64,000 nucleotides of DNA, taken from positions 1 through 64,000 of the forward strand of contig CANJCO010000022.1 in NCBI GenBank assembly GCA_947473045.1. The letters run 5' to 3'. A program made the translations under genes and the position numbers. The notes below the pieces were generated by a model. The model had not been told where the DNA came from. It saw nothing but the letters and a program-made list of their open reading frames with translations, and searched no databases. Shown here in pieces: positions 1-63,974 of the stretch; the stretch's first letter is position 1; every line of letters begins with the position of its first letter. This stretch comes from Myxococcales bacterium (GTDB taxonomy: Bacteria > Myxococcota_A > Polyangia > Polyangiales > Polyangiaceae).

Positions 1-136
1 GAAAAACACCCTGATAGTAATTGGCGAAGCCAATTGCGTGGGGTGGGGACCCCGAAAAACCGCGTTTTTCGGGGCGGGGAGGTGCATACCTCCCCGAGAT
101 GAAAGGCTAGCAGGCCGTTCTTCAACGGCCTGCTAA
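1..136 (+). repeat. hairpin-rich 152-bp dispersed repeat, copy 1 (5' end cut by window edge)
   Basis: First of three copies of the same element (others at 33138-33289 inverted and 63137-63288). About 14 bases of the left end lie outside the window. It is a chain of potential hairpins: AATTGGC-GAA-GCCAATT (29-45 region), a 10-bp stem CCCCGAAAAA/TTTTTCGGGG (about 51-75), GGGGAGGT-GCAT-ACCTCCCC (about 77-96) and a terminal stem AGCAGGCCGTT/AACGGCCTGCT. The right end supplies the TAG stop of purU (133-135 read on the minus strand). Small indels against copy 3 shift every reading frame, so the element is not coding. No transposase is nearby. Confidence 0.9.
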
Positions 137-1020
137 AGCACGATCGTTCGGCGGCCCTCTACGATGACCCTTCGCTCGAGGTGGGCGCGCACGGCCCTCG
201 CGAGCACCACGCGCTCGACGTCGCGGCCAATGCGCGCGAGCTCCTCGGGGCCCATCCCGTGGTGCACACGCTCGACGTCCTGTTCGAGGATCGGGCCCTC
301 GTCGAGGTCTTTCGTGGCGTAGTGCGCAGTCGCTCCGATGAGCTTCACGCCGCGCTCGAAGGCCTGATGGTAGGGGCGCGCGCCCTGAAATGCCGGGAGA
401 AAGCCGTGGTGAATGTTGATCACGGGCGGCGCCTTCTGCAGAAAGTCGTCGGAGAGCACCTGCATGTAGCGCGCGAGCACGACCAGCGTAACGTGATGCT
501 GCTTGAGCAACGACAGCACCCGCGCTTCTTGCTCGGGCTTGCTGGCCTTGTCGACCGGGAGCGCGAAGAACGGCAGGCGAAAGCTCTCGGCCACCGGTTC
601 GAGCGTCGCGTGATTCGAGATCACCATCGCGATCTCGCAAGGCAGCTCGCCCTGTCGCTCGCGAAGCACCAAATCGTACAGGCACGCGCTCTCTTTGGTG
701 ACGAGCAGCGCGACCTTCTCGGGCTTGTCATCGTAGCCCACCGACCAACTCGCCGACAGCTCTCCCGCCAGCGCGCCGAACGCGGCTTCGAGCGATCGGC
801 GCGAAGCCGATTCACCCAGTCTTGCGAGCGCCTGCGGCCGGGCGAGGCCGTCGAGATCGATCGACAGCCGCATGTAAAATCGACGCCCGTCGGCCTCGGC
901 GCGCGAGGCGTGGTTCGACGAGTCGAGGATGTTCAGGCCCAGGTCGAAGAAGAAGCCCGCGAACCGTGCGACGAGGCCGGGTTGATCGGGGGCGGCGAGC
1001 AAAAAGATGGCGCGGGACAC
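133..1020 (-). CDS. purU: formyltetrahydrofolate deformylase
   Basis: Hydrolyses 10-formyl-THF to formate and THF, which balances the folate one-carbon pool and can feed formate to purine synthesis. At 295 residues it matches the family (about 280-295). The N-terminal ~85 residues (from SRAIFLLAAPDQPGLVARF) are an ACT domain. The rest is a formyltransferase fold with the hallmark segment NIHHGFLPAFQGARPYHQAF, including the conserved Asn-His, and a later DLDEGPI containing the catalytic Asp. It is divergent from thrS across 89 bp. Its TAG stop lies in the terminal CTAG-like end of repeat copy 1, so its 3' end abuts that element directly. fhs at 52.5 kb catalyses the formate-to-10-formyl-THF direction, so the two form opposing steps, though not one operon. 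Confidence 0.95.
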   Translation of the reverse strand: MSRAIFLLAAPDQPGLVARFAGFFFDLGLNILDSSNHASRAEADGRRFYMRLSIDLDGLARPQALARLGESASRRSLEAAFGALAGELSASWSVGYDDKPEKVALLVTKESACLYDLVLRERQGELPCEIAMVISNHATLEPVAESFRLPFFALPVDKASKPEQEARVLSLLKQHHVTLVVLARYMQVLSDDFLQKAPPVINIHHGFLPAFQGARPYHQAFERGVKLIGATAHYATKDLDEGPILEQDVERVHHGMGPEELARIGRDVERVVLARAVRAHLERRVIVEGRRTIVL

Positions 1021-30607: not shown

Positions 30608-31870
30608 GTGGTGACCTCTCGGCGCGGCTGGCAACACGCACGGTTCGCTCCCCTCGCGGCGCTCGCGGCCCTGGCGGCCGCCGTTGCCTTTCGGAGCCCG
30701 CGCCACACCGACAAGCCGGATGCGCAGCCCCCAGCGGCGGTCATCGGAGGCGCCCCCCGCGCTGCGGCCGCGGGCTCCATTGCGTCGTCGGGGGGCTCCG
30801 ACCTCGCGGCGGGTGAGGGCGCGGCCCGCATGTTTCACGGAGACTCCGCACACGTTCACCGCGCGCGTGCTCGCGGCCCCGTCGCGGCAACGCTCGCCTG
30901 GTCGCGGAGCGTGGGCGGTCCGGTCGCTGCGCAAGTCGTCGCCTCGCCCGATGAGCAGACGCTCTACGTCGCGTCGCTCGCGGGTGAACTGCTGGCGCTC
31001 GCTCGCAACGGTGACGTTCGCTGGCGGGTCGCCCTGGGCGATCGCGCCTACGGAACGCCGCTCGTCGGGGGGGATGGCACCGTGTTCGTTGGGAGCGACG
31101 CGAAGCGGCTGTTCGCGATTTCGCCCGCGGGCGCCGTGAAGTGGCGGCTCGAGGTCGACGGCGAGTGCGACACGAGCCCCACCTTCGACGCCGCCGGGCG
31201 CGTTGTGTTCGCGGCTGGCCGAAGCGTCTACGCAGTCGACGTCTCAGGTCGCGTCGCGTGGCGGTACCGAGCGGGCGGAAAGGTGTTCTCATCGCCCGCT
31301 ATTTTGCCCTCGGGTGCGGCGGTGTTCGGCGCGCAGGATGGCCGCGTTTGCGCGATCGACTCCGCGGGAAAACCTGTATTTTGCACCGAGTTGGGCGCGG
31401 ACGTCGACGCCTCGCCCGTGGTGGCTTCCGACGCGATTTATGTCGGAACCGACCGCGGCGACGTGGTGCGCCTCGACCCCGCCGGCGCCGTGGCGTGGCG
31501 CACGGCTGTAGGAGGTTTCGTGCGCGGAGGCTTGTCGCTCGCCCGCAGCGGCGACGTGCTTGCGGGCGTCTACGGTCCGGCTCCGCGGGTCGTGCGCGTC
31601 TCCCCCGCTGGCCTCGTCGTCGGATCGTTTTCCGTGAGCGGGACCGGCGCCCCGGAGTTCGGCGTTCACGGCGCTCCGCTCGAGGACGCCGCGCACACCC
31701 TTTATTTCGGAGCGCAGGACGATACGCTCTACGCGGTAGGTGCAGGGGGAGCACTGCTCTTTCGCTTTGCCACGGGAGGCGACATCGACGCTCCCGCAAC
31801 CTTGCTCTCCGACGGCTCGCTCGTGTTCGCGTCCGAAGACGGAAGCGTGTACAATCTCGCCATTCGATGA
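30608..31870 (+). CDS. PQQ-like beta-propeller repeat protein, membrane-anchored or exported
   Basis: 420 residues, GTG start (30608 or 30611). One N-terminal hydrophobic segment (FAPLAALAALAAAVAF) acts as anchor or signal. The remainder is a series of PQQ-like blades, each with a G-x-(V/L)-x-W-R type strand: GDVRWRVALG, GAVKWRLEVDG, GRVAWRYRAGG, GAVAWRTAVGG. This gives a seven- to eight-bladed propeller. Such folds are either PQQ dehydrogenases or BamB-like scaffolds; the Ca/PQQ ligands are not evident, so a scaffold or sensor role is more likely. The stop overlaps the next start (ATGA). Confidence 0.8.
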   Translation: MVTSRRGWQHARFAPLAALAALAAAVAFRSPRHTDKPDAQPPAAVIGGAPRAAAAGSIASSGGSDLAAGEGAARMFHGDSAHVHRARARGPVAATLAWSRSVGGPVAAQVVASPDEQTLYVASLAGELLALARNGDVRWRVALGDRAYGTPLVGGDGTVFVGSDAKRLFAISPAGAVKWRLEVDGECDTSPTFDAAGRVVFAAGRSVYAVDVSGRVAWRYRAGGKVFSSPAILPSGAAVFGAQDGRVCAIDSAGKPVFCTELGADVDASPVVASDAIYVGTDRGDVVRLDPAGAVAWRTAVGGFVRGGLSLARSGDVLAGVYGPAPRVVRVSPAGLVVGSFSVSGTGAPEFGVHGAPLEDAAHTLYFGAQDDTLYAVGAGGALLFRFATGGDIDAPATLLSDGSLVFASEDGSVYNLAIR

Positions 31871-33141
31871 TCGACGTGCCCGGACCTCGTCCTTCCGACT
31901 CGGAAGAAATTGCCGCCGCGCTTCGGGCTGCGCGAACGCTGTGGGCGTGCGATGAGCGGGCCGCTGCGATCGGTTGGGTTCGTCGCGCATCGAAGGCTGC
32001 GACCGACGCGAGCGACGCCGACCGTGCGCTTGAGCTCGAGGCGATCGCCGATGATCTCGCGCGCGCTCTGGCCGAGTGGTTGCAAAACGCCCCCGCCGAC
32101 GATCCGTCGGGCGCGAGCCTCGATGAATCGAGCGCGTCGCTGATCAGCATCGACATCGAAGCATTGATTGAACACTCCGCTGCCGGCATCGACGCCGGTT
32201 CGTTCGACGACGTTCCGACCGCTGTGCGGTCGGGCGGAGCCGCAAAGCCGCTGCGACGCGCGGCAGGCGCGAGGGCGCCGCTCGTCGTTCGGCGCGAGCC
32301 GGTCCGTGTTGTCGACAAGGAAATCGTCGACCCGCACGGCGTCGATCCCGAAGATGAGACCGTCACGCTGGTTCGCGCCCGAGGCGCAGGGGCCGCGAGC
32401 GGGCTCGTGGTCGCCGATCTCGATGGCATCGAAGCGCTCGCCGACTTGCCTGACGACGCCCGTGAACGGCTCGCGCGCGAAGCAACAGTGACGCTGCTGT
32501 CGCCGGGAGAGCAGGCGCCCGCGTTTTCGCTGGCGGTCGTGCTACGCGGCGAAGTCGAGCTGCTGGGAGCCGAGTGCAACGTGCCGGCGGATCGCGTTGG
32601 CGCCGGTCAGGTCGTCAAGGTGGCGGGATCGCTGGCCGAGGTCGTGGGGCTCCGATTGGTCGCCACCGCTGAGTCCGCGCGCGTAGCGACCTGGGCAAGC
32701 GCCGCAGTCGACCCGGTCCTTGCGTCGTGCCCGTGGGTCGACGATGAGCTTCGCGCTCACGCTGACCGAAACGCGTCGCTCATCGCCTTGACGCTCGGGC
32801 CGCTGGGGGCGGGCCTCGAGCCGGAGGTCAGGGCGGAGCTCGTCGTGCATCTCGGCGTGCGTTTGCTCGTCGCTGGGGAGGCCGTCTTCGAGCGCGCTGC
32901 GCCAGTCACCCAGCTCGTGATTGTGGGGCAGGGCGTCATCGAGCTTCTTGACGCTGACGGCGTCGTCGCGACGAGCGCTCGCGCGGGCGCGCTCGTCTTC
33001 TCCCCTGAGCTCATGTCGGCCGACGATGCGCCGGCGACGGCGCGTGCAGGCGCCGGCGGTGCGCTCGTGCTCGTCGGCGACCGCGCTGAAATCCGCGGCC
33101 TGGTCATCCGCCATCCGTCGCTCGGCACGCTGCTCGTCTAG
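31867..33141 (+). CDS. cytoplasmic protein with degenerate cyclic-nucleotide-binding-like domains
   Basis: 424 residues from the ATG at 31867, which overlaps the propeller stop. The N-terminal ~85 residues are helical. The second half (about 190-424) shows two beta-roll-like repeats (TVTLLSPGEQAPAFSLAVVLRGEVELLG...; VRLLVAGEAVFERAAPVTQLVIVGQGVIELLD...) matching the cNMP-BD pattern G-x-x-(A/V)-F-x-x-G...V-x-x-G-x-(V/I)-E-L. The phosphate-binding cassette (FGE...RAA) is not recognisable, so nucleotide binding is doubtful. Its TAG stop lies in the CTAG end of repeat copy 2. Confidence 0.68.
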   Translation: MIDVPGPRPSDSEEIAAALRAARTLWACDERAAAIGWVRRASKAATDASDADRALELEAIADDLARALAEWLQNAPADDPSGASLDESSASLISIDIEALIEHSAAGIDAGSFDDVPTAVRSGGAAKPLRRAAGARAPLVVRREPVRVVDKEIVDPHGVDPEDETVTLVRARGAGAASGLVVADLDGIEALADLPDDARERLAREATVTLLSPGEQAPAFSLAVVLRGEVELLGAECNVPADRVGAGQVVKVAGSLAEVVGLRLVATAESARVATWASAAVDPVLASCPWVDDELRAHADRNASLIALTLGPLGAGLEPEVRAELVVHLGVRLLVAGEAVFERAAPVTQLVIVGQGVIELLDADGVVATSARAGALVFSPELMSADDAPATARAGAGGALVLVGDRAEIRGLVIRHPSLGTLLV

Positions 33142-33289
33142 CAGGCCGTTGAAGCCGCGGCCTGCTAGCCGTTCATCTCGGGGAGGCATGCACCTCCCCG
33201 CCCCGAAGAACGCGGTTTCTCGCGGGTCCCCACCCCACGCGATTGGCTTCGCCAATCCCTGGCAGGGTGTTTTTCGACCGCCCTGCTGG
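33138..33289 (-). repeat. hairpin-rich 152-bp dispersed repeat, copy 2 (inverted)
   Basis: Inverted relative to copies 1 and 3 and the same 152-bp length as copy 3. The terminal hairpin end (TAGCAGGCCG...CGGCCTGCTA, 33139-33167) faces the upstream gene and its TAG is that gene's stop codon. The internal hairpins GGGGAGG/CCTCCCC and ATTGGCGAAGCCAAT are kept, the first with a wobble change (T-A to T-G). The distal end reads CTGG instead of CTAG. The 87 bp up to the next gene stop hold nothing else I recognise. Confidence 0.9.
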
Positions 33290-56369: not shown

Positions 56370-56756
56370 TCACTTCGGCGCGGGGAGCGCGGAATCGCCG
56401 GTGGCGATGCGTGTCGTCGACGGAGCGGGATGCGGATCTGCGTTGTCGTCGCCGGGAACGAACCACGGGCCGGGGTGCGGTTCTGCGTTGTCGTCGTTGG
56501 CAGCGAACCACGGGATGGGGCGCGGCTCGCCGTTGTCGTCGCCGGGCGCGGGCGGCTCGGGCGGCGCGCTGACGGAGCCCTTCTTGCCTACGCTCGAACC
56601 TTCGCTCGCGTTCGGGGGAGCGGCGCTGAGCGGCGCGATGAGCTGCGCGCTTCCGTCAACGTCAACTTCGGCGGCGCATCCGAGCGTCAACAGCGCCGCG
56701 GCGGCTGCGGCCAGAGCGATGCGGGCGCATGCGTGAGCGAGAGGTGCGAGGGTCAT
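56370..56756 (-). CDS. small lipoprotein with 15-residue tandem repeats
   Basis: 128 residues, ATG at 56756 overlapping the stop of the sigma-54 activator gene (ATGA). Signal peptide [17 protein letters not shown] with lipobox LTLGC. The C-terminal half holds repeats of the type DDNxEPxPxPWF ([38 protein letters not shown]), matching a 45-bp DNA period (units aligned at 56442, 56487 and 56532 on the plus strand). No known family. Its translational coupling to a regulator suggests a regulated envelope protein. Confidence 0.7.
56424..56552 (-). repeat. 45-bp coding tandem repeat, about 2.8 units
   Basis: The decamer GTTGTCGTCG recurs at 56442, 56487 and 56532 with exact 45-bp spacing, and flanking bases are similar in each unit. 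It encodes the 15-residue DDN...PWF repeat of the lipoprotein, so gain or loss of units stays in frame. Confidence 0.85.
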
Positions 56757-61880: not shown

Positions 61881-63140
61881 ATGCCGCGGACAGGCGACAC
61901 GTGCACGGTGCGATTTTCGTTTGACGGTGAAGTCATCGAGGCCGCGCCCGGCGAGCCGATCGCGTCGGCCATTGCGGCGCGCGGGTTGTCGATCGCGCGG
62001 AGTCCGAAATTTCACAGACCGCGCGGCCCCGCGTGTTTTCGCTCGGCGTGCGACGGATGCCTCGCGCGCGTGAGCGGACAGCCCAACATCATGACGTGCA
62101 TGGTCGCCGCAAAAGAAGGCGATGTGGTCGAGTCGCAGAACACGCTCGGGTCGCGAAAGCTCGATCTGCTTCGCATCACCGACTGGTTTTTTCCTGACGG
62201 CATGAACCACCACGAGCTGTTCGCCGGCGTCGTCGGCGTGCAAAAGGTGATGCAGATTTTCGCGCGGCGTGTCGCGGGGTTGGGGCGCCTGCCAGCCGAA
62301 ATTGTGCCCGCGCGCGCAGCGCGAAGGCGCGACGTCGACGTGCTCGTTATCGGCGGCGGCCCGTCGGGCATGGCAGTGGCGAGCCGACTTGCCGATGCCG
62401 GTCGCGGAGTCGTCATCGTCGACGACGGGCTTGAAATTGGCGGCAACGCGCTGTCGTTGCCGGGCGCAGGTTTCCGGGGGCTCCGCGATCGATTCGCGGC
62501 GACGACCGCGATCGAAGTGCTCGCGCAGTCGACCGCGGTCGGAACGTTCGGCGACGACGTCGTGGTGGTCACTCCCGCGGAGACGCTCGTGTTTTCGGCG
62601 GGCGAGCGGGTGCTTGCCACCGGCGCCCACGACGGCGTGCTTGCGTTCGCGGGCAACGACCTACCCGGCGTGATGAGCGCGCGCGCCGCCGGGGTGATGC
62701 TGCGCTTCGGCGCGATTCCTGGCGCCCGTGTTGTCGTCGTCGTCTCGCCGCTGGGCGGGCCTTTCGGCGAGGCCTACGCGTCGGCGATCGGGAAGGTGGC
62801 TGGCGTGACCGTTGAGGTCGTGCGCGGCGATCCCGTGGCTGCGAAGGGCGTCGATCGCGTGAGGGCGATCACCGTGCGTGTGGACGGCGCGAACCGTGAA
62901 ATCGAGGCCGACGCCGTGCTCATCGACGCGCCGCGTGCGCCGAGCTACGAGCTCGCTGAGCAGCTTGGGGCGAGACTCGTTCACGAGCCGCGAGGCTATG
63001 TGGCGCAGGCTCCCGAGGGGCGCGTTCGCGAGGGCGTGTGGGCCTGCGGCGAACTCACCGGCTGCCCTCTCGACCTCGCAGCCATCGAAGCTGACGCGGA
63101 CGCGCTCGTGGCTGCCATGCTCGGTCGCGTGACGGGCTAG
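61881..63140 (+). CDS. 2Fe-2S / FAD oxidoreductase, sarcosine-oxidase-alpha-like
   Basis: 419 residues. The N-terminus is a Fer2_4-type 2Fe-2S segment (FSFDGEVIEAAPGEPIASAI, then FHRPRGPACFRSACDGCLAR, with the later Cys in IMTCM). It continues into DWFFPDGMNHHELFAGV and VMQIFARRVAGLGRLP, which fits the SoxA N-terminal half. The FAD Rossmann motif VIGGGPSGMAVASRLADAG follows, and the C-terminus contains WACGELTGCPLDLAAIEADA. The long C-terminal aminomethyl-transferase-like domain of full SoxA (~970 residues) is absent, as in HcnB/OoxA-type subunits. No SoxB-like partner is in the window. Its TAG stop is the left CTAG end of repeat copy 3. Confidence 0.8.
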   Translation: MPRTGDTCTVRFSFDGEVIEAAPGEPIASAIAARGLSIARSPKFHRPRGPACFRSACDGCLARVSGQPNIMTCMVAAKEGDVVESQNTLGSRKLDLLRITDWFFPDGMNHHELFAGVVGVQKVMQIFARRVAGLGRLPAEIVPARAARRRDVDVLVIGGGPSGMAVASRLADAGRGVVIVDDGLEIGGNALSLPGAGFRGLRDRFAATTAIEVLAQSTAVGTFGDDVVVVTPAETLVFSAGERVLATGAHDGVLAFAGNDLPGVMSARAAGVMLRFGAIPGARVVVVVSPLGGPFGEAYASAIGKVAGVTVEVVRGDPVAAKGVDRVRAITVRVDGANREIEADAVLIDAPRAPSYELAEQLGARLVHEPRGYVAQAPEGRVREGVWACGELTGCPLDLAAIEADADALVAAMLGRVTG

Positions 63141-63288
63141 CAGGGCGCTCGAAAAACACCCCGACAGGAATTGGCGAAGCCAATTGCGTGGGGTGGGGAC
63201 CGGCGAAAGACCGCGTTTTTCGGGGCGGGGAGGTGCATACCTCCGCGAGATGAAAGGCTGGCAGGCCGCAGCTTCAACGGCCTGCTAG
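63137..63288 (+). repeat. hairpin-rich 152-bp dispersed repeat, copy 3 (between convergent genes)
   Basis: Complete copy in the same orientation as copy 1. Both ends are CTAG (63137-63140 and 63285-63288), next to the inverted motifs CAGGGCG and CGGCCTG. The left TAG is the stop of the FAD oxidoreductase and the right CTA is the stop of ccmB on the other strand. The hairpins AATTGGC-GAA-GCCAATT and GGAGGTGCATACCTCC are intact, and the long CCCCG...CGGGG stem is partly degenerate. Confidence 0.92.
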
Positions 63289-63974
63289 TCGTCGACCAGC
63301 GCGCCGAACATCGCGAGCCCTCCGGCGATCGCGATCGCGTCGAACGCGAGCAGCAGCACCGCGTAGTCGCGCAGCTCGGAAAGCGGCGCGCCGGCGAGCA
63401 CCTCGCGGGTGGCGGCGACGCCTGAAATCAGCGTCGGCGACAGCAGCGGAAACAGCACGCTCGCGAGCACGAGATCGCGCGCGCGCGTGCGCACGGTCAT
63501 CGCGCCGAACAGCGTGCCTGCTGCAGCAACGCCGACGGTTCCGAGCAGCAGCAGCAGCGCGATCGCCGGCCCGAACTGGGTGAGGTCGACATGGAACACG
63601 AGGGCGACCACGGGCACGATCACGCACTCGATCGTCAGCACGAACGCCAGCACGCCAAGAGCCTTGCCGAGGAAGAGCGCTGGCCGCGAGACGGGTGCGG
63701 TGAGCATGCCGACGAACGCGGCGTCCTCGCGTTCGCGCTGCCATGTGCGGCCCAGCGCGAGGACGCTCGCAAACGCTACGGCCAACCAGATGGTACCGGG
63801 CGCCACGCGCGAGGTCGTCGACGTGCCGGTGGCGTAGGCCACCGAAGCCATGAGCGAGACGAGCACGCCGAAAAAGCCGGACGTAGTGACGATCTCGCGC
63901 GTGCGAACCTCGATCGTCAGGTCTTTCGCGAGCACAGCCACCACCTGCGCCGCGAAGCCGGGTGGCCGCGGCAC
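63285..63974 (-). CDS. ccmB: heme exporter subunit CcmB (5' end possibly incomplete)
   Basis: 229 residues visible. Inner-membrane component of the CcmABC heme-handling complex for cytochrome c maturation. Six or so helices (IVTTSGFFGVLVSLMASVAY, IWLAVAFASVLALGRTW, PALFLGKALGVLAFVLTIEC, GPAIALLLLLGTVGVAAAGTL, LVLASVLFPLLSPTLISG, LLAFDAIAIAGGLAMFGAL) and the family segment REREDAAFVGMLTAPVSRPA. The GTG at 63974 is the only start seen, but the frame stays open to the window edge (upstream residues NHDEHEP), so the real start may lie outside; ccmA would be expected there. Confidence 0.88.
   Translation of the reverse strand: MPRPPGFAAQVVAVLAKDLTIEVRTREIVTTSGFFGVLVSLMASVAYATGTSTTSRVAPGTIWLAVAFASVLALGRTWQREREDAAFVGMLTAPVSRPALFLGKALGVLAFVLTIECVIVPVVALVFHVDLTQFGPAIALLLLLGTVGVAAAGTLFGAMTVRTRARDLVLASVLFPLLSPTLISGVAATREVLAGAPLSELRDYAVLLLAFDAIAIAGGLAMFGALVDD

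Follow-up and report, generated by a model that had tools for sequence, protein, structure and literature searches.

A probable IS5-type miniature element that duplicates YTAR targets and often meets stop codons in a Polyangiaceae genome

In the 64,000-nt stretch of a Myxococcales genome analyzed here (the window), a 152-bp repeat occurs in three copies, and the genes next to it end exactly in its terminal tetranucleotides. Why should a dispersed repeat meet stop codons so regularly? An initial annotation had proposed that the element inserts at CTAG, which reads TAG on both strands, and that its ends supply the stops. The coincidence itself holds at all four gene ends, and the open reading frames are consistent with all four stop positions. 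Copy 1 (1..136, + strand) lacks its left part at the contig start and has CTAA (133-136) as its right-end 4-mer; this is TTAG on the strand of purU, the gene for formyltetrahydrofolate deformylase (133..1020, - strand), whose TAG stop (135-133) lies inside it. Copy 2 (33138..33289, - strand) is bounded by CTAG (33138-33141) and CTGG (33286-33289), and its CTAG contains the TAG (33139-33141) of a cNMP-binding-like gene (31867..33141, + strand). Copy 3 (63137..63288, + strand) carries a perfect 4-bp direct repeat, CTAG (63137-63140) and CTAG (63285-63288); the left one holds the TAG (63138-63140) of a FAD/2Fe-2S oxidoreductase gene (61908..63140, + strand) and the right one the TAG (63287-63285) of ccmB (63285..63974, - strand). 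CTAG is rare in the window, as had been expected of GC-rich DNA, with 20 occurrences vs 71.6 expected from dinucleotide shuffles. The window starts inside a copy because many contigs of its genome (G000; 5.15 Mb, 138 contigs) end in the repeat. A further copy, 0.7 kb downstream of copy 3 and just past the window (G000:C22:64022-64172; L001:2386-2536), is older and 84% identical. Elsewhere in the window, a 45-nt unit is repeated three times in tandem at 56420-56554, inside a predicted coding region.

The left terminal inverted repeat of copy 3 (63141..63166, + strand) reads CAGGGCGCTCGAAAAACACCCC (CAGGGTGTTGAAAAACACCCTG in young copies) and is itself a hairpin. It is followed by a two-hairpin core that is kept across genera (63186..63254, + strand), in the order GCGTGGGGTGGGG, stem 1, stem 2, GAGATGAA, and by a right-end hairpin (63257..63288, + strand) that holds the inverted repeat together with the target 4-mer (CTGGCAGGCCGC...AACGGCCTGCTAG). 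A genome search with the core pattern, allowing up to 3 mismatches, found at least 149 copies in G000, and the reversed pattern gave zero matches in the same search. End analysis was performed on 53 G000 copies with both ends. Their left 4-mers were mainly CTAG (14), TTAG (11), CTAT (8), and CTGG (6), and their right 4-mers mainly CTAG (23), TTAG (11), CCAG (6), CTGG (5), and CTAA (4). Compared in direct register, the letters of the two ends agreed 166 times vs a permutation mean of 147.2 (20,000 permutations, p = 5e-5), while the inverted register gave no signal in the same 53 copies (p = 0.82). Because the end 4-mers match in direct register only, the 4-mer is a duplicated target site: it originates from the target and is duplicated at insertion. 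Identical 4-mers at both ends were found in only 17/53 copies, and the remaining ones need mutation to fit the duplication. In one nested case (L056), a copy was inserted at an internal CTGG of another copy and has CTGG on either side.

Insertion at CTAG with duplication, as originally suggested, is thus upheld by the direct register, by the nested CTGG, and by an empty site described below (L003). Tabulation of the flanking tetranucleotides did not sustain CTAG as the sole target; the true target is YTAR, mostly CTAG, as for IS5, which duplicates Py-T-A-Pu, CTAG most often, with CTGG also seen (PMC5493358). The CTAA of copy 1 and the CTGG of copy 2 had been taken as decayed CTAG duplications, which they are not necessarily: CTAA may be a native YTAR target, the left end of copy 1 being cut off by the contig start.

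Several peculiarities of the ends deserve mention. A left CTAT (also TTAT) is frequent while the right end remains CTAG (L004, L006, L013, L029, L034, L062, and L066). In some copies, CTAT corresponds to CTGATAG, the inner arm of the left hairpin, a hint that the change may be hairpin-templated; this origin was set aside, the association being a weak trend only. Tandem copies with one common CTAG occur at L041 (G000:C75:1-209), L061, L066, L004:824, and L020:2414, and the same set of loci has coreless solo hairpins of 22-31 nt between YTAR sites, in which two end repeats face each other, as if the end hairpin could move or persist by itself. In another genus, a 5-kb contig begins with a copy that is almost the same as the young G000 consensus (G006:C52:1-118; L042/L203), through either recent transfer or contamination.

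The sole IS5_4-type transposase gene in G000, on contig C83, encodes 366 aa and scores 273 bits with NF033581 (cut-off 140). An IS1182 label was rejected for it, the 199 bits with NF033551 lying below the cut-off of 270 while the IS5_4 score lies above its own. The gene is flanked by CTAA-CAGGACGTTGAGAAA and TTTCAACACCCTG-CTAA, a 4-bp direct repeat. CAGGGTGTTGAAA is common to an end of the C83 IS and the left end of the element, and the right end differs more; the inverted repeat in common is about 13 nt long and concerns one element end only. Among about 74 transposase relatives from other bacteria, ends of the C83 type (CAGGNNGNTGAAAAA) were found in 44 by a search blind to the 4-mer, and all 44 carried YTAR (CTAG 34, TTAG 6, CTAA 3, TTAA 1). 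The element has the size (152 bp), the copy number (at least 149), and the lack of a transposase gene that characterize MITEs; it has inverted repeats in common with the resident IS and a duplication that agrees with that of the IS in length and sequence class, YTAR in both. With regard to the IS5 family, both the transposase and the duplicated YTAR target agree. From the YTAR duplication and the IS5-type ends, as seen in the genome's own IS, in its relatives, in IS5, and in MITEPsy1, the repeat is therefore classified as an IS5-type MITE. Since the element ends are hairpins and the C83 IS ends are not, the element is not simply that IS with its interior deleted. The C83 transposase gene is single-copy, which was counted against its role as the mover.

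Taking these results together, we consider it highly probable that the repeat is a miniature transposable element moved in trans by the resident IS5-family transposase, and that its stop hits in G000 arise without special targeting. The IS5_4-type transposase, probably that of C83, would recognize ends of the form YTAR-CAGGGTGTTGAA... and make cuts staggered by 4 bases at a target YTAR, leaving YTAR on both sides; by analogy with IS5, the chemistry is presumably cut-and-paste. Of the YTAR sites usable in GC-rich DNA without breaking a gene, a large share are stop codons, and at CTAG, which is TAG on both strands, both of two convergent genes survive.

Two other accounts of the terminal 4-mer were weighed. 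Each end hairpin includes CTAG, CTAG is palindromic, and REP families have a conserved terminal tetranucleotide, all of which would suit a CTAG that is part of the element, as an inverted-repeat end or REP-like tag, and a single-strand RAYT or IS200/IS605 style of movement with no target duplication. This account is very improbable, because the end 4-mers co-vary in direct and not inverted register, the nested insertion has a duplicated CTGG, YTAR duplications flank IS relatives that have the same ends, and an empty site with exactly one YTAR was seen once (L003). An inverted-repeat end was rejected for the lack of signal in inverted register, and the direct-register duplication departs from the REP/RAYT and IS200/IS605 pattern. 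The Y1 (HUH) transposase PF01797 is absent from G000, G001, G005, and G006, and a Y1/RAYT mover was discarded on its absence from G000. An IS630/Tc1-type element duplicating only TA inside a preferred CTAG is suggested by IS630 of Shigella, which prefers CTAG, and by the TA duplication in many bacterial MITEs, and is a shade less probable still. A TA-only duplication would not account for the outer 4-mer positions: positions 1 and 4 also agree between ends, position 1 (C/T) alone being associated (Fisher p = 6e-5), and the CTGG duplications contain no TA. Moreover, the register is 4 bp, the ends match the IS5_4 element, and the IS630-type DDE_3 domain (PF13358) is absent from G000 and three relatives, so that it was rejected as mover in G000.

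Were the stops there before the element? We compared the insertion sites with G001, a same-genus relative at about 70-80% DNA identity from which all empty sites come. At L003, the G001 orthologue ends ...GACAAGCGCTACTTGAACTAGG and has a single CTAG at its stop, which is what the initial annotation predicted for an empty site; G000 has the same stop in ...TACCTCAA-CTAG-[element]-TTAG (also given as ...TACCTCAACTAG-[element]-TTAG). At L028, the proteins of both genomes end PGLR(L/V)-stop, and at copy 3 the G001 ccmB orthologue has its stop, a TGA, at the identical codon position. At L002 (G000:C15:69751-69902), the G001 orthologue reads GCG CAG TAG and G000 reads GCG CAC TGG, running 8 codons into the element; the TAG in the duplicated site was lost to TGG after insertion. 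The stops of L011 and L018 are displaced by a few codons between the two genomes. At copy 2, the alignment with the G001 orthologue holds until close to the C-terminus, and the intergenic region of G001 is too different to define an empty site. None of the orthologues examined shows a clearly longer C-terminus that the repeat would have truncated, a finding that the initial annotation had named as refuting its reading. These alignments indicate that the stop codons mostly predate insertion, and the idea that the repeat supplied TAG did not survive the comparison. An end of the element does give TAG to every in-phase frame reading toward it, and the coincidence could be a mere selection effect, in which the repeat truncated genes and supplied new stops without any target specificity. 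This is scarcely credible: the position of the stop codon is the same in orthologues (L003, L028, L002, ccmB, and, for a sister element described below, L238 and L223), and PurU is full length, TIGR00655 being matched up to the last model position. In the flanks of the 53 copies that read toward the element, moreover, 32 stop in the 4-mer, at +2, and 7 continue into the element, although a ratio of 1:2 would be expected from random phase.

The two-hairpin core extends well beyond G000. A covariance model of the ~90-nt core (R1) found it in 25/108 genomes of the same family, belonging to 15/48 genera; G022 alone has at least 39 copies. In 60 further copies from the wider family, the architecture of complete copies is constant: left-end hairpin, GCGTGGGG[T/A]GGGG, stem 1, stem 2, a short spacer, and right-end hairpin. 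In a MAFFT alignment, which was not fitted to structure, both-side changes occur at 10/18 pairs of the core, and 39 double-change cells were counted vs 10.3 in shuffled alignments; 0/500 shuffles were as high, and all slid versions were lower. The core base pairs are thus kept by base-pairing selection across the family. The ends differ between genomes: YTAR-CAGG in G000, G001, G005, and G065, YTAR-A[TC]..GCGAGCG in G076 and G081, CTAG-AGCGAC in G094 and G023, and C-TGA-AGGTCTGTC...CGACAGCTCT-TGA-G in G022 and G053. The right end folds as a long hairpin in G000, G001, G005, G022, G065, G081, and G094, and also in G108. The core is older than the element's present ends. Four core loci had no Rfam match at E up to 1, and no earlier description of the element, or of MITEs targeting stop codons, was found in the open-access literature. 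As to a putative role of the core, we think that the element's own mobility is most likely, and mRNA 3' ends second. GGGG[T/A]GGGG before stem 1 and GGGG[C/A]GGGG around its 3' side make up four G-tracts conserved in all genera (e.g. 63186-63254), which could form a quadruplex in place of the hairpins.

Stop codons might themselves be the target: on top of its short sequence preference, the element or its machinery would be attracted by gene 3' ends, where the core would serve as an RNA module. G000 argues against this. A flanking gene stops exactly in the 4-mer at 29/53 copies; among the 22 YTAR sites of the window that lie outside the element and outside genes, 10 are gene stops, and the difference is not significant (p = 0.11). 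Both orientations occur. Because many gene-sparing YTAR sites are stops, the stop hits in G000 need no special targeting, and the YTAR preference plus the loss of gene-breaking insertions suffices. The coincidence first noticed is real, and in G000 it does not exceed what YTAR sites and the sparing of genes provide. The sister element of G022 behaves differently. At loci L220-L239, the TGA stop of the upstream gene is the left-end TGA in 18/20 copies, always in one orientation. At L238 and L223, the G048 and G053 orthologues have the stop codon at an identical position, and these stops are therefore native. In 800 kb of G022, sense stops make up 37% of the CTGA and 51% of the CTGAG sites outside genes, and 18/20 exceeds both (p = 1e-6 and 3e-4, respectively); any additional preference for sequence or structure is left out of this baseline. 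An asymmetric reading of TGA would produce the fixed orientation, which a symmetric duplication would not be expected to give. A search of the same 800 kb for a transposase with ends of the G022 type gave one TIR pair, 2.9 kb apart. The conserved base pairs of the core also speak for stop targeting; a canonical U-tract terminator was not seen at the element ends. On balance, we regard stop targeting as unlikely, and the IS5-type element with its YTAR preference remains our reading for G000.

A broader hypothesis, possible though doubtful, is that these repeats form a lineage of structured miniature elements in at least 15 genera of one family, in which one covarying two-hairpin core persisted while ends, transposase partner, and target changed between genera. 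All targets seen (YTAR and TGA) would then read as stops, the G022 type would favor a sense TGA stop beyond sequence preference, and the core would work either within the 3' end of the mRNA or in transposition, as a guide or handle. In the G000 element, nature provides a clean case of a mobile element that, owing to a short palindromic target, can spread in a gene-dense genome and leave the genes unbroken, a target readable as a stop codon being a safe harbor. The conserved core with its exchanged ends suggests a passenger structure outliving its transposases, and the G022 copies, which land on TGA in one orientation only, open stop-codon targeting to direct test.

The closest known counterpart is MITEPsy1/ISPsy2 of Pseudomonas syringae. 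MITEPsy1 is likewise about 100-150 bp long and gene-free, inserts at CTAG or YTAA with a 4-bp duplication of the target, and has ends resembling a resident IS; it differs in its unrelated sequence and its 18-nt inverted repeats, and its description, as far as consulted, reports no cross-genus conserved multi-hairpin core (PMC3189936). E. coli IS5 and the IS5 family have the 4-bp Py-T-A-Pu duplication, with CTAG commonest (PMC5493358), in common with the element, and the C83 transposase belongs to NCBIfam IS5_4; unlike IS5, the element lacks a transposase and its ends are hairpins. REP/REPIN sequences with RAYT are also high-copy extragenic hairpins with a terminal tetranucleotide, whereas G000 has no Y1 transposase, the element makes a 4-bp duplication, and its tag is the target YTAR rather than a fixed GTAG. 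Finally, the IS630-type MITEs Correia/NEMIS and RUP resemble the element as structured repeats of 100-150 bp, present in about 100 or more copies and moved in trans, but their targets are described as TA (PMC2229807), whereas that of the element is the 4-bp YTAR.
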